Assembly (NCBI GenBank): GCA_029932675.1 | Contig: JAOZPP010000022.1 | Span: 1 to 40,432 of the forward strand | DNA from: a bacterium | GTDB taxonomy: Bacteria > SM23-81 > DAOVCL01 | Reading direction: 5' to 3' | Length of the DNA stretch: 40,432 nucleotides | In this document: one piece after another, positions 3,666 to 40,381 of the stretch | Layout: each line of letters starts with the position of its first letter | Position numbering within the stretch: the first letter of the stretch is position 1 | Position numbers and translations under genes: made by a program | The notes under the pieces: generated by a model | Told to the model about the DNA's origin: nothing | The model's database searches: none | Seen by the model: the letters and a program-made list of their open reading frames with translations, nothing else

Positions 3666-5200
3666 ATGTTTCCGTGTTTCTTGGGGGGATTGGTGTCCCT
3701 CTTGTTCTCGATGAATTCAAGGGCCTCGATTAGCCTACGCCTCGTATCCCGGGGGGGGATTACATCGTCTATGTAGCCCTTGCTGGCAGTTATATAGGGG
3801 TTGGCAAATTTTTCCGTGTATTCCTTGACCAACTTTGACTTCAGGGCTTGGGGATCCTTTGCCTCTTTAAGTCGCTTCCTGTAAAGTATATTGACCGCAC
3901 CATCTGGGCCCATAACCGCAATCTCCCCGCTCGGCCAGGCGAAGTTGACATCTGCACGGGTATGTTTGGAGTTCATCACGCAATAGGCCCCTCCGTAGGC
4001 CTTCCTGGTAATCACTGTTAATCGGGGAACAGTAGCTTCACAGAAGGCATAAAGCAGCTTGGCACCATTTTTTATCACGCCACCCCATTCCTGAGCAGTG
4101 CCGGGGAGGAAACCAGGGACATCGACGAAGGTGACAATTGGTATATTGAAGCAATCACAGAATCTTACAAATCTGGCTCCCTTTGCCGCTGAGTTTATGT
4201 CCAGCACACCGGCAAGCACCGCTGGCTGGTTGGCCACTATGCCCACTGACCGGCCACCAAGCCTGGCAAATCCCACGATGAGGTTCTTGGCAAAGTGGGC
4301 GTGCACCTCCAAGAATTTTCCATCATCTATTACCCTTTTAATCACTTCCACCATATCATAGGGCTGAATCGGACTGGCCGGCACAATGGAGTCAAGCTCG
4401 GGGTCGCTCCGATTAGGGTCATCAGTGCATTCAACCATTGGTGGATCTTCAAGGTTGTTTTGCGGAATGTAACTTAAGAGCTCCTTAATTAGCTCTATAC
4501 ACTCGACTTCAGAGTTAGCAGCAAAATGGGCCACTCCAGACTTTTCATTATGCACCATAGCGCCCCCAAGCTCCTGAAATGTGACATCCTCATGGGTGGC
4601 AGCCTTAACCACATCCGGCCCGGTCAAAAACATATAAGAGGTCTCCTTTACCATAAACACAAAATCGGTCATTGCCGGAGAGTAGACTGCCCCACCGGCG
4701 CAGGGCCCCATTATGGCTGAAATCTGAGGGACAACTCCAGAGGAAAGGACATTGCGGAGGAATACATCTGTGTAACCAGCGAGTGAGTCAACCCCTTCCT
4801 GAATCCGGGCCCCACCTGAATCTTTTATGCCAATTATGGGGCATCCCCCCTTCATCGCCATATCCTGTAACTTGCATACCTTTTCTGCATAAGCCTTGGA
4901 GAGTGAGCCCCCGAATACGGTGAAGTCCTCGGAAAATACATAAACCTGCCTTCCGTTAACCCTTCCATATCCGGTTACCACCCCATCCCCCAGTATCTTC
5001 CGCTTATCCATATCAAAGTCGGTGCATCTGTGGGTGACAAACATATCCGTCTCCCGGAAACTGCCCTTATCAAGCAACAAATCGATCCTCTCCCGGGCGG
5101 TGAGCTTGCCACCGGCATGCTGCTTATCTATCCTCTCCTTACCCCCTCCGAGGAGGGCCTGCCTCCTTAGAGCCTCCAGTTCTTTAAGCTTATCTTCCAT
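3656..5200 (-). CDS. pccB: Acyl-CoA carboxylase carboxyltransferase (propionyl-CoA carboxylase beta / methylmalonyl-CoA decarboxylase alpha type)
   Basis: A 514-residue biotin-dependent carboxyltransferase that moves CO2 between carboxybiotin and propionyl-CoA or related acyl-CoAs. The N-terminus has [13 protein letters not shown], followed by the crotonase-fold oxyanion regions [18 protein letters not shown] and [12 protein letters not shown]. The C-terminal half has [25 protein letters not shown] and [15 protein letters not shown], and the length is normal for PccB/MmdA. An upstream extension of 16 codons is open, but AGGTGAGG just before the ATG at 5200 decides for MEDKLKEL. No biotin carboxylase or biotin carrier gene is in the window, so carboxylase and decarboxylase roles cannot be separated. 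The mutase genes beyond the toxin-antitoxin pair and MeaB further on suggest the propionyl-/methylmalonyl-CoA pathway. Confidence 0.9.
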
Positions 5201-21731: not shown

Positions 21732-23633
21732 CTATTTAGCCCTTTCCAAGATAAGGAGGCTGTTCTGGGGATGGGTAAACTCCTCATAAAGCCCTTTAAA
21801 CTGAGGGTATTCTTCGGGGGAAACCTCCCTCTTCTCTAAGGTGAATTTGGCATGGAAGGTAACCCTTTGCCCCTCTTGTTGAAAACTCTGGCTGAAGTAG
21901 CCCACCCCATTTACCTCCTCCCTTTCCGGGGGTAGGTAATCGACCTTATAACCGGGGGGAATCGTTATGCTCCCCTCCACCACTAAGGTCAAGGGCTGAG
22001 GGGAGAGGAGCGGATATCTCCTCTGCGAAAGCTTCGGGGAAACCGGAATGTCGGCAAAAGGGAAGGGGTTAGGGGGAACCTTCACCAACATCAGATCCCC
22101 TTCCTTGATACCATATTGGGGGGTGCGGAAGATAAATTGTAGAGTATCACCCCAGGTAAGATCTTGCAGTTTGGAGAGCTTATACCCCTTCAATTCCGTG
22201 CCCTCGGCAAGGCGGTTGGCCGCCTCCTCAAATAGCATCTTACGCAGTTGTGGGGTAAGATCCTTGAGCTTCTCCCTCGTCCTTAGGTCGAAATAGCCAG
22301 AGGGGAGAAACCTTAGCTCTCCCGAGGCGGAGCCATCCCCCTCCAAGGTTATCTTCAACCTTCTGGTGGCTTGGTTCTCAGCGGCTGATGAGGCCCAGGT
22401 TTGGGTTAACCTTCCCCCCTTTCGGCTCACCAAAAGACATCTCTGACCATTCCCAAAAGGTAGGTAACCATAGGGGGAGTTCTGGGCGAATGGGTCAAGC
22501 CAGATGGCCCTCCCTGGCCGAGGAACCATCACCAGGAGCCCATCGAACTGGCCAGGGGAGGGAATTTCCTCAACCAACTTTTCGTTGGAGTTGTTAACCA
22601 AGACAGGCAAGGCCTCAATCCCTTCAGCCTTTAAAAGGCTTATCAAGAGGATGCCCTTGTCCCTGGGGTCGCCGTATCTGTTATGGAGGACCAGGGAAGC
22701 AGAATGGGGGGTGTATCCCCCATCCCCTAACCTAAGCGGGATATTCCTCACCTGAGTAGCCACCCAGAGGAAGATCTCTTTAATCCTCTCCTCCTCTAAA
22801 CTCAGCCCCCGGCATAGCTCCGCGGCCTTGACCTGCACCCCCCCTGCTGTCTCTACCCCAGGAAAGAACTTACCTCCTAACCATCTACCCACCGCCTCCC
22901 AGGAGTCAAAGGAGGAATAGATAAGCCGGGGGACAACCTCCCCTAAAGGGGGCATAGATGGCTCTGGGGTGAGCTGGGGAGAATCGGATACCCTCCAGGT
23001 ATATTTTACCCTTCCCCCCAACCTCTCCACCTCGGGTTGGGATAGACCATTGAGTAGTTTATACTTAAACTCCTTCCCCTGAGGGAGGGAAATGGTAAAC
23101 TCCTTTTTTAAGATGGGCTCATATCCCCCAAAGGGCTCACTCCCCCAAAAGAACCTATCCCCTAAGGGCCTTTCGCTCTTCAACCTGGCCTGATAATCGA
23201 TTATGGAGTTCTCCTCGAGGCCAGGAAAGGAGACGACCAACTGCCTCACATTAGCGTAGATAGTTGCATCAGATAGTTCAGGGGGGGTGATGATGTTCTT
23301 GGCATTCTCAGGAACCTCTATCACCGTTCCATCCCCTTTAATCGTGCGCGCCCTATCCACAGTCATCCTCTCCCATCTCTGGTCGAACCTCCTCTTTATA
23401 TCCCCAAATTCCCTCTTCCCGCGATCGTTGAATACCTTCACTACCAGATGCTCCTCCACCTCCCAGTTCCCTTGCTCATCAACCCTAAGGTCCTTCTGGT
23501 GGAGCAGGACTAAGGCCCCGGCATTGGGATACTGCTCTGCCCCTGGGCTGTCCTTCATTATACCCTCAGCCCAGGCCCATAGGGGGAGGCAAAGGATCAT
23601 AGGGATAAGAAAGGATAGCTTCCTCTTGGTCAT
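21732..23633 (-). CDS. DUF3857 / transglutaminase-like protein, predicted pseudoenzyme
   Basis: 633 residues with a signal peptide (MTKRKLSFLIPMILCLPLWAWA), so secreted or periplasmic. A DUF3857 beta domain comes first (VEEHLVVKVFNDRGKREFGD, GLEENSIIDYQARLK), then a transglutaminase-like domain, then a C-terminal beta domain. In active members the Cys lies in YGDCKDKA; here the sequence is NRYGDPRDKG, with P323 at the Cys position, and the His of FNH is Gly (G365 in FDGLLVM). Only the Asp (D380) remains. A catalytic thiol is thus absent; it probably binds a peptide or a partner. GGAGGTG before the ATG at 23633 fixes the start, closely following the intact paralogue. Confidence 0.85.
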   Translation of the reverse strand: MTKRKLSFLIPMILCLPLWAWAEGIMKDSPGAEQYPNAGALVLLHQKDLRVDEQGNWEVEEHLVVKVFNDRGKREFGDIKRRFDQRWERMTVDRARTIKGDGTVIEVPENAKNIITPPELSDATIYANVRQLVVSFPGLEENSIIDYQARLKSERPLGDRFFWGSEPFGGYEPILKKEFTISLPQGKEFKYKLLNGLSQPEVERLGGRVKYTWRVSDSPQLTPEPSMPPLGEVVPRLIYSSFDSWEAVGRWLGGKFFPGVETAGGVQVKAAELCRGLSLEEERIKEIFLWVATQVRNIPLRLGDGGYTPHSASLVLHNRYGDPRDKGILLISLLKAEGIEALPVLVNNSNEKLVEEIPSPGQFDGLLVMVPRPGRAIWLDPFAQNSPYGYLPFGNGQRCLLVSRKGGRLTQTWASSAAENQATRRLKITLEGDGSASGELRFLPSGYFDLRTREKLKDLTPQLRKMLFEEAANRLAEGTELKGYKLSKLQDLTWGDTLQFIFRTPQYGIKEGDLMLVKVPPNPFPFADIPVSPKLSQRRYPLLSPQPLTLVVEGSITIPPGYKVDYLPPEREEVNGVGYFSQSFQQEGQRVTFHAKFTLEKREVSPEEYPQFKGLYEEFTHPQNSLLILERAK

Positions 23634-23648
23634 CTTCACCTCCATCTC

Positions 23649-25643
23649 TCAGGGCTTTGCTGATTTCTCCAGCACAACCAATCCCTTGGCTGAGCGGGAG
23701 GAGGCCTGGAGGATCTCCCTTAACAACGGGTAGTCCTCAGGAGGAACCTGGGGTTCCCCTATAAGGAGCTCCTTATGATAGACAACCTCACCCTTCCCCT
23801 GCTCATAAAACATCCGATAAGAGAGTTTAGGATGGTGGATCCTTACCGAATCCGGGAGCGCCCTCACCCTATAGGATGAGGGGAAGCGGATGGTCTCCTC
23901 CTCTGCTGAGCCAAATGTGGTCCAGAGGTCAAGAGGATACCTCCTCTGGGGGAGCTTGGCATTTCGGAAGAAGTAATGGGAGAGGATGGCCAGTTTCCCA
24001 GAGGAGAGGGGAGAGGAGAAGACGAAGAAATCCCCGGCATGGTAACCACAGTTAGGGGCCTCATACTCCAATCTGATCTCTATCGGCTGGTAAAGATCGC
24101 TAACCGGCTGGGGGGAGACCGAGAACTTGAGGAGCTTGGCCCCGGGAAATACCTCCTGGAGCTTCCGTTGCCAATAGATCTTCCTCTCCTCAGGGGATCT
24201 TCTCCTCATAGTAGAGCGGAGGACTTCGTCGTAGAAGCCGTTTCCCGTAATTGTCACCCGCGATCTCAGGGTTCCCCCTGCGGTGAGCTCCGAACTGGCC
24301 ACAATCCTCCCCATATTTCTTTGCGGGGGAGGAATAGGGGTAAAGTCTATATCCGCCCCCTCTTTAGTGGAGAGCAAAATCCCTTTGTCCCCTTCATAGG
24401 CGGGGAGAAAATCCCGACAGAGATCATCGGTAGGGTCTAAATAGCAGTAGGTTCCATCCTTCCTTCTCACCGCAGTGATTACATGGTTGAACTGATCGGT
24501 GGCCACCTGGGGGACAACCCTGGTCTCCGGATTGGTGAGGACATAGTAGGCATCCAGCCCTGCCTCCCTAAGCATAGCCACCAAAAGGGCGGACTTGTCC
24601 TTGCAGACACCCTGCCCATTCTTGAAGGTCATCGTGACCGGATGAGGCTGGAGCCCCTCCTTTTTGCCAAAGGAGAGGCCCACATATCTTACCTTCTGGG
24701 CCACCCAATAATAGATGGCCCTGATCTTCTCCTCCTCCGTTTGCAGGCCCTTGGTGAGCTCAGCAACTTTTTCCCTTATCTGCTCATCGGTCTTGAGCAT
24801 TGGCTCACAAAGCCTATAGGAATCCCGCGAGGCCTTCTTCCAAGTATTGGTGGTCACCAGAAGCCTCCTGGCTACCTCTCCCAAGGGGGGCATCCCCGGT
24901 TCCTCTACTATCTGAGCCACATCCTTGGCCACCCATTGGTATATAATTTTGCCCCCCTCCTCCCTTTGGGAAAACTTGACCTTCCCATCCTGGTTCTGCG
25001 TGCAGAACCAGGAGAGCTGCACATCCCGCGGGCCTATGAGGGTCTCCTTAACCATCAGCTTCGGCTCCTTTCCCTGGAACCAGTTGCCCCAGTCAAAGAC
25101 CCCCTTTATGGCCGGCTGCTTGGCCAGATAGCAGGCCCGGTATTCAATTGCTGAGCCTACCCTTAGGTTGGGAAAGGTAATTACCTTCTCCCGGCTGCCC
25201 GACCAATAAATGCTCATCTCTGCATCTTCAGACTGGTTGATGTCCTTAATGGTAGAGTCAGGGACATTGGTGATGGAACCATCGGGGGCAATTACCCGCG
25301 CTTGCGTAACCACTAAGGAGTCGTATAACCTGTCGTATTGTAGCTTCACCACTCCAAAATCCTCTTTCCCCTTCTCATTGAGTATCTTCACCAAGATGTG
25401 GATATGTGCCTCATAGAGACCTGATTTCTGGAAGATGGTGGAGTCCTCATCAGCGATATAGATGGCGTTTGCATTGGGATGTTCGGCAGAGGTCCCCGCC
25501 TGGTGGATAAGCTTGAGCAGTTGCGGGGGAGCTTGGCTCTCCAGTGGATACCTGAATATTGACCTCTGAGGGGGTTTCCCAAAGCATCCCCAAATTGCCC
25601 AGGTCAGGCCAACTGTAATAATAAGTAGGTGCTTTAGCTTCAT
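23649..25643 (-). CDS. DUF3857 / transglutaminase-like protein, intact triad
   Basis: 664 residues, exported; the N-terminus MKLKHLLIITVGLTWAIWGC may be a lipoprotein signal with a non-ideal lipobox (IWG|C). The DUF3857 domain includes AHIHILVKILNEKGKEDFG and LRVGSAIEYRACYLAKQP. The transglutaminase-like domain has a full triad: C347 (GVCKDKSALL), H387 (FNHVITAV) and D403 (YLDPTDD). The real reaction of these proteins is not established; protein cross-linking, peptidase or amidase roles are possible. A good promoter is at 25676-25704, and the gene is followed by its pseudoenzyme paralogue, suggesting the two work as a pair at the envelope. Confidence 0.87.
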   Translation of the reverse strand: MKLKHLLIITVGLTWAIWGCFGKPPQRSIFRYPLESQAPPQLLKLIHQAGTSAEHPNANAIYIADEDSTIFQKSGLYEAHIHILVKILNEKGKEDFGVVKLQYDRLYDSLVVTQARVIAPDGSITNVPDSTIKDINQSEDAEMSIYWSGSREKVITFPNLRVGSAIEYRACYLAKQPAIKGVFDWGNWFQGKEPKLMVKETLIGPRDVQLSWFCTQNQDGKVKFSQREEGGKIIYQWVAKDVAQIVEEPGMPPLGEVARRLLVTTNTWKKASRDSYRLCEPMLKTDEQIREKVAELTKGLQTEEEKIRAIYYWVAQKVRYVGLSFGKKEGLQPHPVTMTFKNGQGVCKDKSALLVAMLREAGLDAYYVLTNPETRVVPQVATDQFNHVITAVRRKDGTYCYLDPTDDLCRDFLPAYEGDKGILLSTKEGADIDFTPIPPPQRNMGRIVASSELTAGGTLRSRVTITGNGFYDEVLRSTMRRRSPEERKIYWQRKLQEVFPGAKLLKFSVSPQPVSDLYQPIEIRLEYEAPNCGYHAGDFFVFSSPLSSGKLAILSHYFFRNAKLPQRRYPLDLWTTFGSAEEETIRFPSSYRVRALPDSVRIHHPKLSYRMFYEQGKGEVVYHKELLIGEPQVPPEDYPLLREILQASSRSAKGLVVLEKSAKP

Positions 25644-33017: not shown

Positions 33018-33470
33018 TTATTCATCAGCTAATCTCATTACTTCCTCTTCCATCGCTTCTGAAATCCTAAACTTTGCACATTTGAGCTTTTCTAATACAG
33101 CCTTCACAGAATTTATAATCCCCTCCTGTTTAGCCTTCAAAATAACACCCAATAATCCAGTGAATCTCAAATCCAAATTTTTGGCTAACTTCCTTGCTTT
33201 TTGATCATCCAATATCATCAAACTATCTTCAATCTCGAGAGAAAGGGCTATTGTACTGGCTTCGCCCAAGTCTATCAAATTATTCAATATCTGCAGGTAC
33301 TTCCTGTCTGAAACTTCCTTAATCTCAATCCAATCTGCTAAACTTCTGCCAAACTCATCAAAAACTTCTTCAGTGATATAGATTCTTCCATAAAGCTCTC
33401 TCAATATAGACATCATACCAATATTATCCAAAGTAATCAAACAGCTCGAATTGGAAATCACATTAGGCAT
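33018..33470 (-). CDS. DUF3368 PIN-domain toxin
   Basis: A 150-residue PIN-fold protein of the DUF3368 group: ISNSSCLITLDNIG at the N-terminus (the first acidic residue of the usual xSDxSPLI is Asn), then YITEEVFDEFG, LGEASTIALSLE, LMILDDQKARKLA and LRFTGLLGVILKAKQ. These proteins are predicted RNases paired with UPF0175 antitoxins, which is exactly the neighbour here. ISNSS instead of ISDTS could weaken metal binding. Its start overlaps the antitoxin end by 8 nt. The pair is bounded by direct repeats. Confidence 0.85.
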   Translation of the reverse strand: MPNVISNSSCLITLDNIGMMSILRELYGRIYITEEVFDEFGRSLADWIEIKEVSDRKYLQILNNLIDLGEASTIALSLEIEDSLMILDDQKARKLAKNLDLRFTGLLGVILKAKQEGIINSVKAVLEKLKCAKFRISEAMEEEVMRLADE

Positions 33471-33690
33471 GTTTAAAATCCTTCTCTATTTCTTCTACAT
33501 CATAATTGAAAAGCGAAACCCCATAATCACCAAGTAATTCCATAAAGGTTCGTTTGGAAACTCCCGCTAAGTCCGCGGCTTGTCCAAGGGAGAGTTTCCC
33601 TTCTTCATATAATCTTGAGGCTATGATAAGGGTCAACTCTCTTGGCTCAACATCTACAAAGTCTGGTATACTGATCTGTATCGTCTGCAT
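33463..33690 (-). CDS. UPF0175 antitoxin
   Basis: A 75-residue UPF0175 protein: IPDFVDVEPRELTLIIASRL, YEEGKLSLGQAADLAGVSKRTFMELLGDYGV, an HTH of the family that pairs with DUF3368 toxins and probably represses the operon. AAGGAGG stands 7 nt before the ATG. A clear promoter was not found in the short upstream stretch, which joins the direct repeat at 33726-33781; part of the promoter could lie in that repeat. Confidence 0.88.
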   Translation of the reverse strand: MQTIQISIPDFVDVEPRELTLIIASRLYEEGKLSLGQAADLAGVSKRTFMELLGDYGVSLFNYDVEEIEKDFKHA

Positions 33691-33725
33691 GATGAATCCT
33701 CCTTACCTCTGTTTCTTTGATATTT

Positions 33726-33781
33726 AAAAGGGTCAGGTCTACACATTTGACAATCCGACCCTTTTCTCCTATTCTTGGAAC
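33726..33781. repeat. Direct repeat right of the UPF0175/DUF3368 pair
   Basis: Second copy of the repeat at 32716-32772 (AAAAGGGTCAGGTCTACAC.. to ..TATTCTTGGAAC), offset about 1.01 kb, same orientation, three mismatches. Confidence 0.8.
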
Positions 33782-33894
33782 CGCCTTTCTATATCCACAA
33801 TCTTTTGCCAACTGGCATGAATTGGGGTCAAACCTCTAAATGCCAATTAACACTCTGCACTACGTCTGCTTAATCATATCTATCCGCCCCCTTT

Positions 33895-34064
33895 GGACTC
33901 CGGTAAATCGGAGTCCCTGCGGTTTTTCTACCCGGCTTTTAGCCGAGGGTTGATAGGGTTTTAGCCCGTTTGGAGTGTTGTGACTCCTGTCACAGTATGC
34001 GTCAACAAGAGTTGACGCACACCATAGAGGGCCCCAAAAGGCCCTCAACCCTGCACTAAAGTGC
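33895..34064. repeat. Composite multi-hairpin element (fills most of gene-free stretch 33782-34092)
   Basis: Seven hairpins in about 170 bp: GGACTCCG/CGGAGTCC (33895-33916), CGGCT-TTT-AGCCG (33933-33945), GGG/CCC (33956-33967), TGTGAC-TCCT-GTCACA (33979-33994), TGCGTCAAC/GTTGACGCA (33998-34019), GAGGGCC/GGCCCTC (34027-34046) and GCACT-AA-AGTGC (34053-34064). The order matches 32483-32573 and, inverted, 3405-3515. Confidence 0.85.
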
Positions 34065-34092
34065 AGAATCAGTTCACTTCGGTCCGCTTATT

Positions 34093-34558
34093 TCAATTGG
34101 GGAAACTGCCCAATTTATTCCTAACCTTAAACGGATTGATGAATTCAACTCCTTCAATAACTCGTCCACTTGGGAAATCCTCGGTATAGATCCTTTTGAC
34201 GTCTGCCCTTTTAGCCGCTGCCCAAATTAACGCATCCCAAAAAGAGAATTGGTATTCTATTCTGCCTCTGATAGCCTCCATAACCATTTGAACATAAGGG
34301 GAAATGACCCTCCAGTTAGAGGACAAGGTTCTCTATAATAGATTTAGTATCAGATTTAGTATCTTCCAAGCTGATAATAGGGCTACCAGCGCGTGTAGCT
34401 TCCACAAAAAACTCACACAGCACCTGAATGCTAATCACACCAATAACCTTGTCCCAACACTGCCGCATTAACCCCTTGGCAATCTTTTGTTTAATACCGG
34501 CATCACGGTCATAAGCATAGAGGAGAATATTGGTATCAATAAAGACGCTATCTCACAT
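34093..34558 (-). pseudogene. VapC-type PIN toxin, broken by a stop codon and a frameshift
   Basis: Translating the minus strand from 34552 gives DSVFIDTNILLYAYDRDAG, a typical PIN-domain start with the metal Asp (FIDTN), then IAKGLMRQCWDKVIGVIS and IQVLCEFFVEATRAG. The frame stops near 34322 (IIENLVL-stop) and continues in another frame with SNWRVISPYVQMVMEAI, YQFSFWDALIWAAA and IYTEDFPSGRVIEGVEFINPF, the C-terminal half with its own metal-site residues. The only upstream ATG (34558) is directly followed by TGA; a former CGA (Arg) codon changed by one transition would explain it. With both a nonsense codon and a frameshift the toxin is surely inactive. The antitoxin gene upstream is intact. 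Confidence 0.85.
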
Positions 34559-34769
34559 GGAGTTCATCCCGTGAGCGGTAGTATGACCCACCGCCAAGTT
34601 GAAAGCCCCGATCCATCCGTTCCAACTCCTGTTTCATGGCGACAATGTAAGATTGGTTTCTCTCCTTCTCATCATGAAAGATAACTTCTACCTCAACTCC
34701 CTCTTTTGCCTTTACAGGTTCAAGCAATTCAACAGATTTTCCTCTATATACGCCCTTTACTATGGCCAT
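34548..34769 (-). CDS. DUF104/AF2212-like antitoxin
   Basis: A 73-residue protein beginning MAIVKGVYRGKSVELLEPVKAKEGVEVEVIF (split here for reading: MAIVKGVYRGKSVELLEP, then VKAKEGVEVEVIF), the signature of DUF104 antitoxins that pair with VapC-like toxins. A TTG at 34784 is possible, but GAGGGG 8 nt before the ATG at 34769 supports this start. It overlaps the broken VapC. Intact and with its own promoter, it may persist as a solitary antitoxin. Confidence 0.85.
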   Translation of the reverse strand: MAIVKGVYRGKSVELLEPVKAKEGVEVEVIFHDEKERNQSYIVAMKQELERMDRGFQLGGGSYYRSRDELHVR

Positions 34770-34830
34770 AGTTGTTCCCCTCAATTAAAGAACCTTAATT
34801 CACCCAATTCCTCTTGAACCTTACCTCTAT

Positions 34831-34859
34831 AATTTAAGTAAACTCCTGTGATTTGTCAA
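34831..34859 (-). promoter_or_regulatory. Promoter of the DUF104/VapC pair
   Basis: On the minus strand TTGACA (34859-34854), 17 nt, TAAATT (34836-34831), about 60 nt before the ATG at 34769. Confidence 0.7.
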
Positions 34860-34915
34860 CAGATTCTCTTTACAATCTTGATTGAATCCCCACGAGATAA
34901 TCAATCCAGGGAAGA

Positions 34916-35170
34916 GGTGGCAGAAGCCCTCTTCTGCCACCTTCTCCTTTGCCGTTAGAACAGGGGTTCTGACGATTCAGGGAGGGAGTTCTAACCGCTC
35001 AGCCGCCATAACCCTGCACTAAAGTGCGGTAGAACCCCTTCTACTCGGTTTTAACTCTTGGTTCCTCGGAGGGTGGCAGAAGCCCTCTTTTGCCGTCAGA
35101 ATCGGGGTTCTGACGGCTCAGGGCTATTTTCTATTTCCCATCTTTTGGGGGAGGAACCCTGACGGCACTG
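34916..35170. repeat. Hairpin cluster (part of gene-free stretch 34860-35738)
   Basis: GGTGGCAGAAG-CCCT-CTTCTGCCACC (34916-34941, 11-bp stem), a second GGTGGCAGAAGCCCTC near 35072 that runs on into TTGCCGTCAGAA..TTCTGACGG, and ACCCTGCACTAAAGTGC (35011-35027), which also occurs at 34048-34064 and 32557-32573. Between 35400 and 35563 I see nothing but AT-rich sequence; 35678-35738 is short and plain. Confidence 0.75.
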
Positions 35171-35187
35171 GTCCTGCAATGCAGCTA

Positions 35188-35231
35188 AAAAAACCGGCCT
35201 GCCTTGATTTAATCCTTCGGCAGCCCGGCTA
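35188..35231 (-). terminator. Intrinsic terminator of leader 1
   Basis: GCCGGGCTGCC (35230-35220) pairs with GGCAGGCCGG (35204-35195), then seven T on the minus strand. The 5' strand is also the 3' strand of the proposed aptamer. Confidence 0.75.
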
Positions 35232-35354
35232 TATGATGTTATTTGACCAGCAGCTCAAGGATACCACCTTGAGCCCTGTGGCTTTGTCCCTCCTGATTCC
35301 TCCCTCTCCCGCTTTGTTTGCCGAGAAAGTTGTGATCTTTAATCATCGGAATCT
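35188..35354 (-). ncRNA. Structured leader RNA 1, GEMM-I (c-di-GMP) riboswitch-like, with terminator
   Basis: Transcribed leftward from the promoter at 35361-35389. Conserved blocks shared with leader 2: CTCGGCAAAC, GGAGGGACAAAGCC, ACAGGGCTCAA, AGCCGGGCTGCCGAAGGA. CTCAAGG/CCTTGAG forms a stem, and CGGCA near the 5' side can pair with TGCCG at the 3' side. The 3' strand can alternatively pair with GGCAGGCCGG, followed by TTTTTTT (35188-35194), a typical riboswitch-terminator switch. The GGCAAAC, ACAAAGCC and GCCGGG-TGCCG elements recall GEMM-I aptamers, but the usual GGGACGCAAAGCC is shortened and the P1b hairpin is not clear. The next gene leftward, at 34769, is about 400 nt away and has its own promoter. 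Confidence 0.5.
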
Positions 35355-35360
35355 ATGTTA

Positions 35361-35389
35361 AAATAGCAAACTACCACCTCTCTGTCAAG
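35361..35389 (-). promoter_or_regulatory. Promoter of leader 1
   Basis: On the minus strand TTGACA (35389-35384), 17 nt, TATTTT (35366-35361). Confidence 0.75.
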
Positions 35390-35562
35390 AAATTTTCACA
35401 TTCAGACTCATTTCTTATTAATCCGTTGGAAAACAGTGAGATATGGGTTCATAATTTGGCAATAGAGGGGAAGCTTTTTGAGTGTTTTGGGCATCTCTCC
35501 AATAAAAATAAAGCAGACAAGAGATCTCCAACTATGGCAACCTCAACGCCCTATCCCTCAGA

Positions 35563-35677
35563 TCTATTCTGGACACATATAGATCCAGATTTTGCAATCA
35601 CTCCAATGGGGGAAAGCTTCGTCAGGGCAGGAGCCCTGACGACACGGAGGAAATCTCAATGACTTGAGTTAATCTGC
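35563..35677. repeat. Direct repeat left of the DUF2283 pair
   Basis: About 115 bp; the first 44 bp (TCTATTCTGGACACATATAG.. to ..CACTCCAA) are identical to 36524-36567, and similarity runs on to AATCTGC. Contains the hairpin CGTCAGGGC-AGGA-GCCCTGACG (35620-35641). Confidence 0.88.
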
Positions 35678-35738
35678 ATCCCATAAGGTTTACCAAAAAA
35701 GCGAAATTCAATTAAGCGGGTTCAAATTACGCTATATC

Positions 35739-35969
35739 CTACTTCTCCGATATACTCTTGGCATTTAAAACAGTCACCCCAACAAGTTGCTCCCCATCGT
35801 AATGGTAAATAAAATTCCCTTCCATAATACTATCATCGGCACATTGAGGCTTCCGAAAACTAATATACAGGGTATCCGTCTCTTCATCATAATCGACCCA
35901 ATAATGGTTTCCGTCAAGTTTTAAAAGATGAGGAATAACAGATGTATCGAATTCTTTTACTTTGCCCAT
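35739..35969 (-). CDS. DUF2283 protein (probable antitoxin)
   Basis: A 76-residue DUF2283 protein: WVDYDEETDTLYISFRKPQ, DDSIMEGNFIYHYDGEQLVGVTVLNAKSI, the family's compact beta fold. DUF2283 proteins often accompany small RNase-like toxins. Its ATG lies inside the end of the upstream gene (overlap 13 nt), so the order is toxin-like gene first, the reverse of the other pairs here. Confidence 0.85.
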   Translation of the reverse strand: MGKVKEFDTSVIPHLLKLDGNHYWVDYDEETDTLYISFRKPQCADDSIMEGNFIYHYDGEQLVGVTVLNAKSISEK

Positions 35970-36289
35970 ACAACTCCCCTCCTCTTAATTGTTCCGGGCC
36001 TGGAAGTCAAGAAGGCTGTAATGATAAACCCCTCTTCTTTATCCTCTCTGTAAACAACAACACAGTACTTTTGTGTGATATTCGTTTCGTCATAATACTT
36101 TAAGGCAAGAAGTTCACCTTTTAGACCTTCTACAATGCAGTCTGGTGAACTTACTGTCTCCATAATTTTGTCTATATTCCCCGCCATATAGTCATGAGAT
36201 TCGACAATATGAAACCACTGCTTGAGGGTCAGACGGATTGCCTTACCAGAGACGGATTTCGTAGTTTCAAGGATTTCTATCTTCTGCAC
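35957..36289 (-). CDS. Putative BECR-fold RNase toxin (DUF4258/PBECR-like)
   Basis: A 110-residue protein: IRLTLKQWFHIVESHDYMAG (H in a WxHI..H context), NIDKIMETVSSPDCIVEG, KYCVVVYREDKEEGFIITAFLTSR. This arrangement (early His, C-terminal TAF.TSR strand) recalls Barnase-EndoU-ColicinE5-RelE-like nucleases. The family assignment is from pattern memory and not secure. GTG start at 36289; an in-frame TAA lies 9 nt upstream, so no longer form exists. Promoter at 36371-36400. Partner: the DUF2283 protein overlapping its end. Confidence 0.7.
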   Translation of the reverse strand: MQKIEILETTKSVSGKAIRLTLKQWFHIVESHDYMAGNIDKIMETVSSPDCIVEGLKGELLALKYYDETNITQKYCVVVYREDKEEGFIITAFLTSRPGTIKRRGVVWAK

Positions 36290-36370
36290 TCCCTTTTACT
36301 CACCCTGTTTATCCTTTTCCCATCAAGAGATATCATACAATCTTCTCCTACAAATTCTCCTCTTCTACTA

Positions 36371-36400
36371 AATATACACCCTATTGCCCTAAAATGTCAA
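36371..36400 (-). promoter_or_regulatory. Promoter of the DUF2283 pair
   Basis: On the minus strand TTGACA (36400-36395), 18 nt, TATATT (36376-36371); leader of about 75 nt to the GTG at 36289. Confidence 0.7.
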
Positions 36401-36523
36401 GATCCTTCATGGGGCTTCAATCTGTGTTCCATCACAACCTACGAGGTCGGAGCTGCAGTTCACCTCCCCTTAGTCCTCCCCCATCAAGGGGGAGGGAATC
36501 GTCCGGAAGGCCAGGAAGTCATT

Positions 36524-36629
36524 TCTATTCTGGACACATATAGATCCAGATTTTGCAATCACTCCAAGGGGGGAAAAGCCCCGTCAGGGCAGGAGCCCTG
36601 ACGGCACAGAATGACTTGCGTTAATCTGC
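36524..36629. repeat. Direct repeat right of the DUF2283 pair
   Basis: Second copy of 35563-35677, same orientation, offset 961 bp, including the CGTCAGGGC/GCCCTGACG hairpin. The stretch 36401-36782 otherwise holds a CCTCCCCC-ATCAA-GGGGGAGG hairpin near 36476-36496 and the promoter at 36688-36716. Confidence 0.88.
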
Positions 36630-36687
36630 CCCGATTTCACCCAATGAGATACCTATGCAACCTTCCCTTCCGACTCTCCTCTTCCAA

Positions 36688-36716
36688 TGAATATCCCCCA
36701 TTGCCAAGGATGTCAA
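36688..36716 (-). promoter_or_regulatory. Orphan promoter facing the direct repeat
   Basis: On the minus strand TTGACA (36716-36711), 17 nt, TATTCA (36693-36688). No gene starts between it and the repeat at 36524-36629; it resembles the promoter at 36371-36400 in its flanks (GGCAAT.GGG before the -10 box). Confidence 0.55.
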
Positions 36717-36782
36717 GACTCTTTGGGGAAAATGCTAAGGTTGGATGTTATAGTGGGTTAGGCTGAGGGTAGGTAGCTCACA

Positions 36783-37215
36783 CTATGGGCGCTCCAATAG
36801 AACTTCTCCGATAGCATAGTCGCAGATTAGGCGAAAACGGTTGATAATATCGCGGCCTAGGACCGAGGGAAGTGGCAAGAGCCGGGAAACTTCCCCAGGG
36901 GTAACTGATCAAGGTCATGTTGGGTGACCCAAATGTCCTGCTGAAGCAAGAAGTCGCCTTCACTCGTGGCAAAAGCTATCTCTACATCCCGCAAAACGAA
37001 TGAACGGACGCTCCCTCCGATCCCAACAATAGGTATCTCCGCGGGCACCAGTGCCTTCAGAGGAATCCCCAGAAGTTTTATATCACGGTCAAGAAGCGTG
37101 GTCCTGGCTGCGCACCCGTGTCAGCCAAAAGCCAACTTGTTCCTTCAAACCAAACTGACCTAAGATGAACTGCAAAATATGGTGCATCGGCAACGAAATG
37201 TCCACGAATAATCAT
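36783..37215 (-). pseudogene. Retropepsin-like aspartyl protease, two frameshifts
   Basis: The gene starts MIIRGHFVADAPYFAVHLRS (ATG at 37215), reaches the catalytic motif LLADTGA, and is then shifted by one base. The next frame gives RTTLLDRDIKLLGIPLKALV, PAEIPIVGIGGSVRSFVLRD and LQQDIWVTQHDLDQLPLG; after a second one-base shift near 36895 it ends RLLPLPSVLGRDIINRFRLI..VLLERP-stop. This is a complete single-domain retropepsin-like protein (DTG, then LGRDII) split over three frames. The ATG overlaps the stop of the DUF5678 gene (ATGA). Sequencing error is possible, but two shifts make decay likely. Confidence 0.85.
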
Positions 37216-37442
37216 AGAATCATCTCTAAGGGCTCGCGGGTTATGAACTCTATACAGGTATGCGCAGGATTTGACAACTTATTCCTCAATCTCATTAAAT
37301 CAGAGTCACTTGCAATAACCTGATAATTCCTCACCCCAATCCATTGATCAGCATATTTCTCAAACAAATCATCAAAATTCTCATATACCCAAATGTGGTC
37401 ACTTTCAAAATCGAGAATCTCCTTAGTCAATTGCTCAGCCAT
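37212..37442 (-). CDS. DUF5678 protein, partner of the retropepsin-like gene
   Basis: A 76-residue protein: MAEQLTKEILDFESDHIWVY, ENFDDLFEKYADQWIGVRNYQVIASDSD, LMRLRNKLSNP, matching DUF5678 (ENLEELxEKYxGKWVAI..KVIA). The frame is open to 37601, but AAGGAGG 7 nt before the ATG at 37442 fixes the start. DUF5678 genes often stand before aspartyl-protease-like genes, as here with ATGA coupling. The pair's function is unknown; a toxin-antitoxin-like arrangement is an inference. Confidence 0.8.
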   Translation of the reverse strand: MAEQLTKEILDFESDHIWVYENFDDLFEKYADQWIGVRNYQVIASDSDLMRLRNKLSNPAHTCIEFITREPLEMIL

Positions 37443-37685
37443 GCTAAAGCCTCCTTGTTTAGTAAATACCTTTAATGTGGGGCTCTCTGGAAGTGTGTGG
37501 GAATAACCTGCTTTATTAACGGGATAGAATAGCATTGGTATAGTTCTCCTCTCTGGTGATGGGAGAGAATTAGATAAAAAACGGGTATCACCCTCACCCA
37601 CCCATCAAGGGAGAAGAGGCTGTTTCGGATGCCCACCCTACAGGAGAGAAGTTAACTGTCGGGTCAACTTTCCAGGTCTCTCAGA

Positions 37686-37845
37686 TGAAAGAAAAGCCTG
37701 CCTTAATTTGGTCCTCCGACAGCCCGGCTGTCGTGTGCTATTGATTTCCGACCCAAAGAGATATTGTTGAGCCCCATGGCTTTGTTCCTCCTCAACCATT
37801 TCCCCCCTTTGCCAGGAAACTCTTCGTCTTTATCCTCGGGATCTG
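37686..37845 (-). ncRNA. Structured leader RNA 2, GEMM-I (c-di-GMP) riboswitch-like, with terminator
   Basis: Same architecture as leader 1: promoter (37852-37880), AGATCCCGAGGATAAAGA near the 5' end, CCTGGCAAAG, GGAGGAACAAAGCC, ATGGGGCTCAAC, AGCCGGGCTGTCGGAGGA. GTTGAG/CTCAAC forms a stem. TCCT..GGCA can pair with TGTC..AGGA, changed from leader 1 in a way that keeps pairing (G-U and G-C). AAGGCAGGCT followed by TTTCTTTC gives the alternative terminator (37686-37730). The DUF5678 gene is about 245 nt downstream and could be the controlled gene. Confidence 0.5.
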
Positions 37846-37851
37846 AAATTA

Positions 37852-37880
37852 AAGATAGTAACTTCTTTCCGCTTTGTCAA
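37852..37880 (-). promoter_or_regulatory. Promoter of leader 2
   Basis: On the minus strand TTGACA (37880-37875), 17 nt, TATCTT (37857-37852). Confidence 0.75.
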
Positions 37881-38443
37881 GATTTTTTGGACGGCTAAGC
37901 CGGCGGAGGTTACTATGGCTGGAGGGGAAAAGTTAGGGGAGAAGCGACAAAATCCTCACCCTCCCCCTAAAGCCGGGTAGAAGAACACCTGGTGCTGATT
38001 AATTTTTGATAAGTGAAGATCAATGCCCATATTAGCTTATGGATCTCTTGGAATCAATAATCTTTAGAAGAAGTTGAGTTGAAGTATGGCAGGGCAATTG
38101 AGAGGGTAGGGCTTGCTTTTTGCCATCTTAGTTCCTCTCGGAGGAGCTGTAGGTCTATACCTCCGGGTTTAGAGTGCTGTCACTCCGGTCACAGCAAAGT
38201 ATCCTTGCCTGTCGGACAAAGGCCCATACAGCACTACCGATCGAAACAAAGACTCATCTACCTTTCCGGGTTATTGAATTTTAGCCCAGAAAGTGTTCTT
38301 TAGCCCCCCTGACTTTCCCCCCTCCGATTCCTCCACCCATTTCGTTTATCCATAATATGACCAAATTCCTGACAAGGGAAGGTAGGGACGCTGTCACTCA
38401 CTGAAAAGCCGAGGCAGCCAGACAGGCTTCTGACTTTGCTTTT
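37881..38443. other. Gene-free stretch with hairpin remnants
   Basis: No gene is supported. GTTTAGAGTGCTGTCACTCC with GTCACAGCA (about 38167-38206) is a partial copy of the E part of the composite hairpin element. On the minus strand at about 38296-38395, GGAGGAATCGGAGGGGGG and GGGGGGCTAAAG resemble a decayed third copy of the leader RNAs. The region also serves as the 3' end of the DUF3857 gene that follows. Confidence 0.5.
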
Positions 38444-40381
38444 CTATCCACTAGGGTGAAAAAGGGTTACATTCCTGCGCTCAGAGGCCAAAATGGATTC
38501 AAAGAATGACTTGACCTCCTCGTAATTTTCCTTCGAAACCTTACTTCTGTTGAGGGAAAGCTGTTTATTCAAAATAACCCTCTCCCCGTCTACGGTACAG
38601 GAGTAAAGGTAATCCCCAAAACTGGATGATCTGGTCAGGACATCGGGAATGGCCTTAATGGTGAAACCCGTAGGTATCCCTATGTTTATAATGTCGATTA
38701 AGGATCTACGGAAACCAAAGACTATGGTGTGCTCCCTGTTCTTTCTGGTAAGCTTCGCAACCATCTGATTTCTTAAGACACTTGGGCTAAAAACGAAGAG
38801 ATCTTCGATTTGCTGTGCATACTGGGGGAGCCGATACCGGTAATTGAGGATCAAAGGTTGGGAGAGTTCGAAGAGCCCAGAGATTGAGTACTCCTCCAGT
38901 ATCGCCCCTGGAGAGGCAGATGAGAGGGCATTCTCGAGCCATTCCTTCTGTTCCCTTTCCCCAAGGGGCTGTAAGAAGGAGCGCGCCAAGGCTGCCTCTT
39001 GCCCGGTCTTTGTGCTCTGCACAGAGCAGAGCAAGGATCCATCCTCCTTAATATCTACCTGACATTCATGGATTGTCCTATTAGCACTCGCCGGTGAAGA
39101 GGGAATGGCAATCAATTTGCTCCCTTTTTCTTTAATGAATAGCCCCTTTGTATCTTCCAGGTACCAAGGTATTTTCCCAAACGGGGTAGCCCGAGACGTG
39201 GCATCTAAGAGTATGTAATCATCGCTGGAAGTATATTCCTTTTCACCTTTAATTACTACCCCCTCATAGCCTTCCATACCGGAAAAATAATCTGCCGGAA
39301 TAGCTACCACCATATGGTTAAACTGTTGAGCAGATATAAACTGTTCATTCACCTCCCCGGAGGTGTTTGTCCGAGCCAGCACTGGATAGGCATCTACCCC
39401 AACCTCTTTTAACATAGTAATGAAGAGAAAGGCCTTGTCCTTGCAGTCTCCATACCTATTTGCAAAGACCTTGGCCGGCTTGTGAGGAATGACCCTATCT
39501 TCCTTTATCTCAATTGCTACATAACGAATTTTCGATTGGACAAAGTCGTATATCGCTGCTATCTTCTCCATTGGACCCATAGAGGATTCTGTAATCTCTT
39601 TCACCTTCGACTTGATAGCCTTGTCAGCTTTAATCTTCTCTTTCACCCGCAGCCAGTAGTTATGCCCCACGATTTCCCATGAGTCGCCTTCGATTGGAAG
39701 GGTCACTCCGAACATAGACAATGATGTGAGCGTAAAACAGATCCTTGTGGTCACCTCTGAGGGAGGGGGCATATAGGGTTCACGGACGATAGGAGGCGCG
39801 TTTCTCACTTTAAAAACGGCTTTTACCCTCCCTTGGGGGTGAGATACGACCTTCTCTACTTCAAGCCCTCTCTTCTTAACAAGCAAATAGTTATACTGCA
39901 AGAAGGGTGGAATGTCGAGGGTAAAGGAAGAGAGCAAGACAGGTTCTTCTCTCTGGAACTGCCAGGTGGAGGCAAGGGGAACTTTGTACAAGACAGAATA
40001 AGAGTATTCAATGACTGAACCAGGTTCTGCACCGGGCAGAGCAAAGACCTTGGCCTTAGAGTCAGTATAAAGAACATACTGGGGGAAGAGGGATTTCTCA
40101 TGTATATCCTCTGGTTGGAGTTCCACAACAGTTCCATCCCTCCGAATGGTTCTCCCCCTTATATTGCGTACCTCACTTCCTGAGGAGAAGGGAATCTGTA
40201 TGGTTGCGTACTTCAGTCCTGCCTCATTGAGAATTTTCGCCACTACATGCCTTGTGAAAACATAGTGCTCTGTGACAGAGAACTCGCCTTCGTCCATAAG
40301 AAATACTGCACTTGCGCTTGGATAATCCTCCTGTGTAGGCGTTTTACCCACATCGATCTCTTCCCAAGTTACCTTCTTCAA
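38444..40381 (-). CDS. DUF3857 / transglutaminase-like protein, intact triad, N-terminus uncertain
   Basis: 645 residues from a TTG at 40381. The DUF3857 domain includes YVFTRHVVAKILNEAGLKYA and GAEPGSVIEYSYSV. The transglutaminase-like part has C313 (YGDCKDKAFLF), H356 (FNHMVVAI) and D393 (ILLDATS). The two paralogues at 21.7-25.6 kb begin with signal peptides; here none is visible. Codons before the TTG (ESPNADFR) read like protein, but a TAG lies 12 codons upstream with no ATG between. So either the TTG is the start and the protein is not exported in the usual way, or the gene begins beyond the window and has a nonsense or frameshift change. The upstream end is at the window edge. Confidence 0.8.
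   Translation of the reverse strand: MKKVTWEEIDVGKTPTQEDYPSASAVFLMDEGEFSVTEHYVFTRHVVAKILNEAGLKYATIQIPFSSGSEVRNIRGRTIRRDGTVVELQPEDIHEKSLFPQYVLYTDSKAKVFALPGAEPGSVIEYSYSVLYKVPLASTWQFQREEPVLLSSFTLDIPPFLQYNYLLVKKRGLEVEKVVSHPQGRVKAVFKVRNAPPIVREPYMPPPSEVTTRICFTLTSLSMFGVTLPIEGDSWEIVGHNYWLRVKEKIKADKAIKSKVKEITESSMGPMEKIAAIYDFVQSKIRYVAIEIKEDRVIPHKPAKVFANRYGDCKDKAFLFITMLKEVGVDAYPVLARTNTSGEVNEQFISAQQFNHMVVAIPADYFSGMEGYEGVVIKGEKEYTSSDDYILLDATSRATPFGKIPWYLEDTKGLFIKEKGSKLIAIPSSPASANRTIHECQVDIKEDGSLLCSVQSTKTGQEAALARSFLQPLGEREQKEWLENALSSASPGAILEEYSISGLFELSQPLILNYRYRLPQYAQQIEDLFVFSPSVLRNQMVAKLTRKNREHTIVFGFRRSLIDIINIGIPTGFTIKAIPDVLTRSSSFGDYLYSCTVDGERVILNKQLSLNRSKVSKENYEEVKSFFESILASERRNVTLFHPSG

Follow-up and report, generated by a model that had tools for sequence, protein, structure and literature searches.

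Changes to existing riboswitches are the presumed source of new classes, but intermediates are rarely seen. Changes in the binding pocket can switch the ligand of a GEMM riboswitch, as in the 3′,3′-cGAMP riboswitches of Geobacter (GEMM-Ib), which belong to the same clan as the c-di-GMP-I riboswitches and whose known change is at G20. The c-di-GMP-I class (GEMM-I; RF01051) combines a P1 stem, a tetraloop P2, a P3 with its receptor, and an interhelical Watson–Crick pair that is universally conserved; its contacts are G20, A47 and C92 (PMC4744006). The preference of this aptamer moves towards other cyclic dinucleotides with the changes G20A and C92U (PMC7288161). Canonical ON-type GEMM switches use one strand for both aptamer and terminator, so that the two exclude each other (PMC9262584).

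The window, i.e. the whole stretch of 40,432 nt analysed here, carries on its minus strand a leader RNA (leader 2) 5′ of a short gene with an ATG at 37442, and a diverged relative of it (leader 1). We consider it moderately probable that leader 2 belongs to a family of promoter-proximal leaders that is confined to one genus and that would descend from c-di-GMP-I (GEMM-I) riboswitches and act as intrinsic-terminator attenuators.

Shared motifs and promoters of leaders 1 and 2

The motif ACAAAGCCNNNGGGCTCAA occurs exactly at 35269–35287 and 37767–37785 on the minus strand, in leaders 1 and 2, and no third site was found in the window with up to three mismatches tolerated; 0.45 chance matches are expected, and two or more were seen in 8 of 100 shuffles. 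A further motif, AGCCGGGCTGNCGNAGGA, is exact at 35213–35230 and 37712–37729 (chance expectation 0.28). The initial annotation was thus right that the two leaders have diverged (61% identity over 159 aligned bases) yet keep the motifs that it quoted. A TTGACA-N17-TAT[T/C]TT promoter precedes each leader as it had described, but the distance from promoter to ACAAAGCC core, which it took to be the same, is similar rather than identical (101 bases in leader 1, 95 in leader 2). The RNA features of the window are as follows.

37852–37880, minus strand: leader 2 promoter, TTGACA-N17-TATCTT, with 10/12 consensus matches and the same position relative to the RNA in other copies
37828–37842, minus strand: 5′ strand of leader 2 P1′ (AUCCCGAGGAU...), the predicted RNA 5′ end; consensus stem
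37787–37797, minus strand: 3′ strand of leader 2 P1′ (GGUUGAGGAGG), directly 5′ of the ACAAAGCC core
37767–37785, minus strand: leader 2 core ACAAAGCCATGGGGCTCAA, the equivalent of c-di-GMP-I J2/3 and the P3 5′ strand
37751–37772, minus strand: leader 2 P3′ hairpin, GCUCAA...UUGGGU, found in 5/5 type-A copies via G-C, G-U and A-U substitutions
37712–37729, minus strand: leader 2 region 3, AGCCGGGCTGTCGGAGGA, corresponding to the c-di-GMP-I P3 3′ strand and the terminator 5′ arm
37687–37702, minus strand: eroded 3′ arm of the leader 2 terminator, GGCAGGCTTTTCTTTC, without CGG; pairing no better than shuffled
35187–35388, minus strand: leader 1, with promoter, P1′, core, P3′ hairpin and intact terminator (−21.1 kcal/mol, z −3.86)
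38246–38384, minus strand: third leader copy of the same type, decayed, upstream of leader 2; found with model R2 only (E 0.0017 for the genome, 3e-05 for 54 kb)

The P1′ stem of leader 2 has two non-standard cells, or can be drawn as six pairs with an A bulge.

A leader family restricted to one genus

The genome to which the window belongs (G000; 3.03 Mb in 116 contigs) holds about 20 related promoter-proximal leaders, and a second genome of the same genus (G001) holds four, counting matches to our models R1 and R2 together with those made by RF01051 only, at C103 and G001 C120. Model R1 was seeded with four type-A leaders (leaders 1 and 2, the C3 copy and C93b), and in G000 it retrieved C93a, which lies outside the seed (E 1.4e-19), C85 (3e-9), C19 (2e-7) and others. 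Model R2, comprising ten sequences, adds C73, C112, G001 C1 and the third copy in the window; when held out, C73 and C112 were matched by R2 at E 1e-8 to 1e-12. The C57, C62 and C1 copies of G001 were found via R1 or R2, and C120 via RF01051.

The leaders fall into type A (leaders 1 and 2, C3, C93a and C93b), type B (C19, C2b, C11, C109, C34 and G001 C62) and type C (C2a, C90, C78 and G001 C57), with C46, C73, C112 and G001 C1 as further diverged relatives. The G000 copies form a gradient of divergence from canonical c-di-GMP-I riboswitches (C85, C103) through intermediates (C105 and type B) to the strongly diverged types A and C. The position of the promoter relative to the RNA is common to the family, and promoters are present in nearly all copies.

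Outside the genus, searches with R1 in 98 genomes and R2 in 290 genomes returned no type A or C leader, and no family member was found in 288 other genomes beyond G000 and G001. Matches of R2 in G002 and G003 and AT-rich foreign matches were dismissed after inspection, and a scan of GTDB r220 with a type B/C motif pattern gave four matches only, which we judged to be chance. C93a and C93b (L011; G000 C93, 35111 and 36204) are 94% identical and about 1 kb apart. Many leaders in G000 and G001 are followed, past the terminator, by families of short palindromic repeats (GGGACAGGGCTTCAGCCCTGTCC, CCGTCAGAACCCCGATTCTGACGG, TTCTACCGCACTTTAGTGCAGGGTT); in the window these repeats occupy 34930–35180, and they flank most type B and C copies (e.g. 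L047, L048, L049).

Architecture and covariation

Folded separately with RNAalifold, types A and C gave the same architecture. A P1′ stem (UCCCGAU/AUCGGGA) near the predicted RNA 5′ end encloses a hairpin, P2′; 3′ of P1′ follow the core (ACAAAGC), the P3′ hairpin, a linker with a CAATAG-like motif, the A(G)CCGnnCUG strand and the terminator. For P1′ and the terminator in ten members, all from two related genomes so that the counts include shared inheritance, there are 12 double-change cells compared with a shuffled mean of 4.7 (0 of 500 shuffles), and seven pairs changed on both sides compared with 3.3 (3 of 500). The covariation score is 0.343 compared with 0.248 for shuffled alignments (0 of 500), and control structures in which the partner was slid by one to three columns scored 0.07–0.15, with a maximum of 0.152. 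As all sequences come from two related genomes, we take this covariation to be good evidence for selection, short of proof.

These data support the proposal that leaders 1 and 2 are diverged paralogues of a selected RNA. The initial annotation had named homologues without covariation as what would speak against its proposed stems, and covariation was found in P1′ as well as in the terminator. Its view that comparison of the two leaders is in itself strong evidence of structure was not confirmed, since two sequences alone carry no covariation signal; the small-seed check that it suggested is also uninformative by itself, with five of the seven core pairs invariant in a four-sequence seed and 246 of 500 shuffles doing as well. 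A leader-peptide (translation) attenuator was considered and rejected, as no ORF is conserved across copies and the indels are not in threes.

Relation to c-di-GMP-I riboswitches

At the gathering threshold, no Rfam family was reached anywhere in the window. In a permissive search, RF01051 aligned to leader 2 over its full length at 18.4 bits (cut-off 35), to leader 1 at 12–13 bits, and to the diverged leaders overall at 13.4–19.4 bits; in G000, leaders 1 and 2 belong to a sub-threshold tail of this family, which C85 (72 bits) and C103 (46 bits) head as canonical c-di-GMP-I riboswitches above threshold. The intermediate copies G001 C62, C105 and G001 C120 are matched by RF01051 at E 0.0014–0.0076. 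Other permissive Rfam matches (mir-2796, a frameshift site and c-di-AMP) were discarded as chance matches, being eukaryotic or viral families or having broken pairs and scores far below cut-off. In the C103 riboswitch (L014, about 4445–4756, minus strand), P3 apparently has an insertion of about 200 nt, and Rfam reports the halves as separate matches. The c-di-GMP-I-like leader of G001 C120 (2654–2743, minus strand; L059; 25 bits) has almost no P2 (GACAA-TAC-ACGCAAAGCC).

The reverse searches lead to the same class. R1 made six matches outside the genus at E <0.1 in the 98 genomes, four of which are above-cut-off c-di-GMP-I or c-di-GMP-I-GGC riboswitches (one in G034, three in G061). Likewise, five of nine foreign loci inspected among the R2 matches in 290 genomes are above-threshold c-di-GMP-I or c-di-GMP-I-GGC riboswitches, and the rest are AT-rich chance matches. 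Because the models match in both directions and because promoter position and terminator platform are common, the comparison speaks for descent of the diverged leaders from c-di-GMP-I, certainly no further than for the P3/terminator half; the resemblance lies mainly in that half, and homology of the whole RNA would be a wider claim than the matches carry.

The likeness can be followed to single elements. Like c-di-GMP-I, the leaders have a ACAAAGCC-A.GG core with A47, an AG bulge (A82-G83) and a CCGGGCUG strand at the position of P3, and the 3′ strand of the aptamer is also the 5′ arm of the terminator, as in ON-type transcriptional GEMM switches (pilM; PMC9262584). Unlike c-di-GMP-I, they have P1′ and P2′ (about 60 nt, without a GNRA loop) in place of P2, and a P3 with an extra hairpin and a linker of about 20 nt. 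The c-di-GMP-I-GGC family (RF03167) is the top Rfam family for C85 and for several of the foreign riboswitches found with R1 and R2, and it matches leader 1 weakly (12 bits), but the diverged leaders score far under its 59-bit cut-off and lack the P1 pairs.

With Vc2 positions inferred by hand from the Rfam alignment, type A retains some ligand contacts and has lost others. The predicted transcript, whose start was placed from the promoter, begins at P1′, so that the P1 stem (P2 5′ flank with P3 3′ flank) is absent and the CCGAAG strand has no 5′ partner. There is also no J1/2 before the P2-equivalent stem and hence no G20 contact; the GGCAAA of leaders 1 and 2 falls in the P2′ loop, where the C93 and C3 copies have TTGCAGA or TTGCACA. 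In contrast, the A47 contact is present, with ACAAAGCC in four of five type-A copies and AAAAGCC in C3. The C92 position, two bases after the P3 strand, is C in leader 1 and U in leader 2, C3, C93a and C93b. The C44-G83 interhelical pair is broken in type A, in which G83 is kept but position 44 is G or A in all copies; it is C in type B, which is closer to canonical c-di-GMP-I. No GNRA-closed P2 that could dock into a P3 receptor is found in type A, where P1′ encloses about 50 nt. Both leader 1 (13.4 bits) and leader 2 (18.4 bits) fail the gathering threshold of RF01051 that C85 and C103 pass.

Since the strand bearing G20 is missing, plain c-di-GMP sensing by type A appears unlikely, whereas a change of ligand is conceivable. 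GEMM-Ib differs in this respect, as types A and C are without the whole strand that carries position 20. The hint of a cyclic-dinucleotide riboswitch in the initial annotation therefore had a factual basis, in that models built from the leaders alone retrieve c-di-GMP-I riboswitches in unrelated bacteria, but sensing of c-di-GMP or cGAMP by leader 2 itself is not supported, given the absence of P1/J1-2 with G20, of C44-G83 and of C92.

Terminators and the damage in leader 2

Leader 1 and most family members have a U-tailed, GC-rich hairpin overlapping the conserved upstream structure; leader 2 does not. The duplex energy of the leader 1 terminator is reached by 0.4% of shuffles. The 3′ arm of leader 2 reads GGCAGGC-TTTTC compared with GGCAGGCCGG-TTTTT in leader 1, with CGG lost; its hairpin has a z of +0.60, and 36% of shuffles have a duplex energy as good. 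When terminator pairing was compared with shuffles, C93a and C93b were weak too, and for the other 13 sequences tested the fraction of shuffles doing as well was always ≤0.02. Examples of the arms are CCGGGCUG/CAGGCCGG, CCGGACUG/CAGUCCGG in C46, CCGAUUUGC/GCAGGUCGG in type C, and CCAAGCUG with UUGG in C93a.

The earlier claim that both leaders keep a 3′ terminator is thus borne out for leader 1 only, and the reading of leader 2 as a working switch with a terminator is not supported. Leader 2 has probably lost its off-switch. As part of its terminator is gone, it is most likely leaky or constitutively on, a decaying copy before a decaying two-gene locus.

Proposed mechanism

One strand, A(G)CCGnnCUG, serves two structures throughout the family, as it forms the 3′ side of P3 and also supplies the 5′ arm of the U-tailed terminator. 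By analogy, transcription would continue while the CCGnnCUG strand is held by an upstream partner or by the folded aptamer, and the terminator would form when the strand is free. For types A and B the candidate upstream partner is AGCC.CGG; type C would use AGUCGG, a sequence that also takes part in P1′. This antiterminator pairing is possible in most copies and, copy by copy, is never better than in shuffled sequence; the proposal comes from comparison of the copies. In types A and C, P1′ near the RNA 5′ end appears to have replaced the P1, J1/2 and tetraloop P2 of c-di-GMP-I, and because of this replacement any ligand that they have is probably something other than c-di-GMP alone.

A more far-reaching form of this proposal is that types A and C are a new riboswitch class which arose from c-di-GMP-I within one genus, with a new P1′/P2′ domain in place of the P1/J1-2 half, a different ligand, the old P3/terminator platform, and intermediates (canonical, B, A and C) in one genome; we think this unlikely. 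Canonical c-di-GMP-I riboswitches, intermediates and remodelled leaders with a common expression platform are found together in one genome of 3 Mb. Should the diverged types prove to bind a ligand, this series would allow a direct test of how riboswitch specificity changes; if they bind nothing, it is a record of the spread and decay of a second-messenger regulon.

Alternative readings

That the type-A leaders, leader 2 included, are true c-di-GMP-I riboswitches with unusual insertions, which bind c-di-GMP, cGAMP or, via C92U, an A-containing dinucleotide, is in our estimate rather improbable. The alignment of RF01051 to the whole length of leader 2 (18.4 bits) would fit such a reading, as would the retention of A47, C46 and G83 (and of C92 in leader 1), the retrieval of canonical c-di-GMP-I by the reverse model search, and the canonical riboswitches and GGDEF enzymes encoded in G000. 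However, the scores of 13.4–19.4 bits are far from 35, the predicted RNA begins at P1′ and so has no P1 or J1/2 with G20/G21, every type-A copy has G or A at C44, which breaks the interhelical pair, and leader 2, C3, C93a and C93b have U at C92.

We also give little credence to the diverged leaders being non-functional, drifting relics of a c-di-GMP-I leader that multiplied together with intergenic palindromic repeats. The compensatory changes seen among the diverged members in P1′ and the terminator, terminators that are mostly far stronger than shuffled, and promoters retained in nearly all copies speak against drift, even though palindromes past the terminator are common to type-B and type-C copies, leader 2, C93b, C112, G001 C1 and the third window copy have parts that are damaged or missing, and the genes after leader 2 are themselves frameshifted. 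It is very improbable that the RNAs are independent small RNAs, each with a promoter and a terminator to itself, and not leaders of the next gene. They are compact units of about 180 nt from promoter to terminator, often with 200–500 nt of repeats before the next gene, and the gene after leader 1 has a TTGACA promoter of its own; but the traced downstream gene is almost always codirectional and usually without an apparent promoter, and canonical c-di-GMP-I members of the family, a cis-regulatory class, occupy the same position. We judge the family of attenuator leaders to be real, selected, genus-level and c-di-GMP-I-derived, and new as a variant, with leader 2 among its weaker members.

Downstream genes and genomic context

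Two genes follow leader 2.

37212–37442, minus strand: first gene after leader 2, 76 aa, weakly DUF5678-like (PF18929, 19.4 bits; cut-off 23.2), with ATG at 37442 and AAGGAGG
36780–37219, minus strand, approximate limits: retropepsin-like aspartyl-protease gene, frameshifted, with DTG in one frame and its continuation in others

The two-gene locus that the initial annotation placed behind leader 2 is present, although its DUF5678 assignment is sub-threshold and the protease gene is broken; the middle fragment of the latter gave no Pfam match on its own. The breaks in this gene are frameshifts or assembly errors. G001 C1, a diverged RNA copy that has no terminator, stands before a broadly similar but unbroken gene pair in which the Asp_protease_2 domain is clear. 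No RNA was found at the one other DUF5678/protease-type pair in each of G000 and G001, and a special link of the RNA to such pairs was not adopted, on the ground that one of two pairs per genome is without it. The association of the RNA with the pair may be real but is thin.

Traceable downstream genes are codirectional with the leaders, except at the truncated C112, which faces a convergent gene. Many of the proteins have N-terminal signal-like sequences, including those at C85, C105, C19, C46, C73, C2b and G001 C120, and the best reading of the sequences is that exported proteins are the products of most downstream genes that could be traced. Small toxin–antitoxin-like genes (addiction-module/ParE-like, PemK, AF2212-like, HicB-like and weakly DUF5678-like) instead follow C90 and the majority of type-A copies; that several type-A copies stand before such genes and not before GEMM-type genes is a point against a c-di-GMP-I-derived family.

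Of the two C93 leaders, one is followed by an addiction-module antitoxin/ParE-like gene pair, the other by a DUF2281/PemK pair. A cluster of small toxin–antitoxin-like genes surrounds leaders 1 and 2 in the window (33018–38440, minus strand), comprising PBECR2 with DUF2283, an AF2212-like gene with a truncated PIN-like ORF, and an antitoxin-like/PIN-like pair at 33018–33690. Three large transglutaminase-like proteins are encoded at 21732–25643 and 38444–40381 (minus strand); DUF3857 and the transglutaminase core were confirmed by Pfam for the 38444–40381 protein only, and the other two were judged from their sequences.
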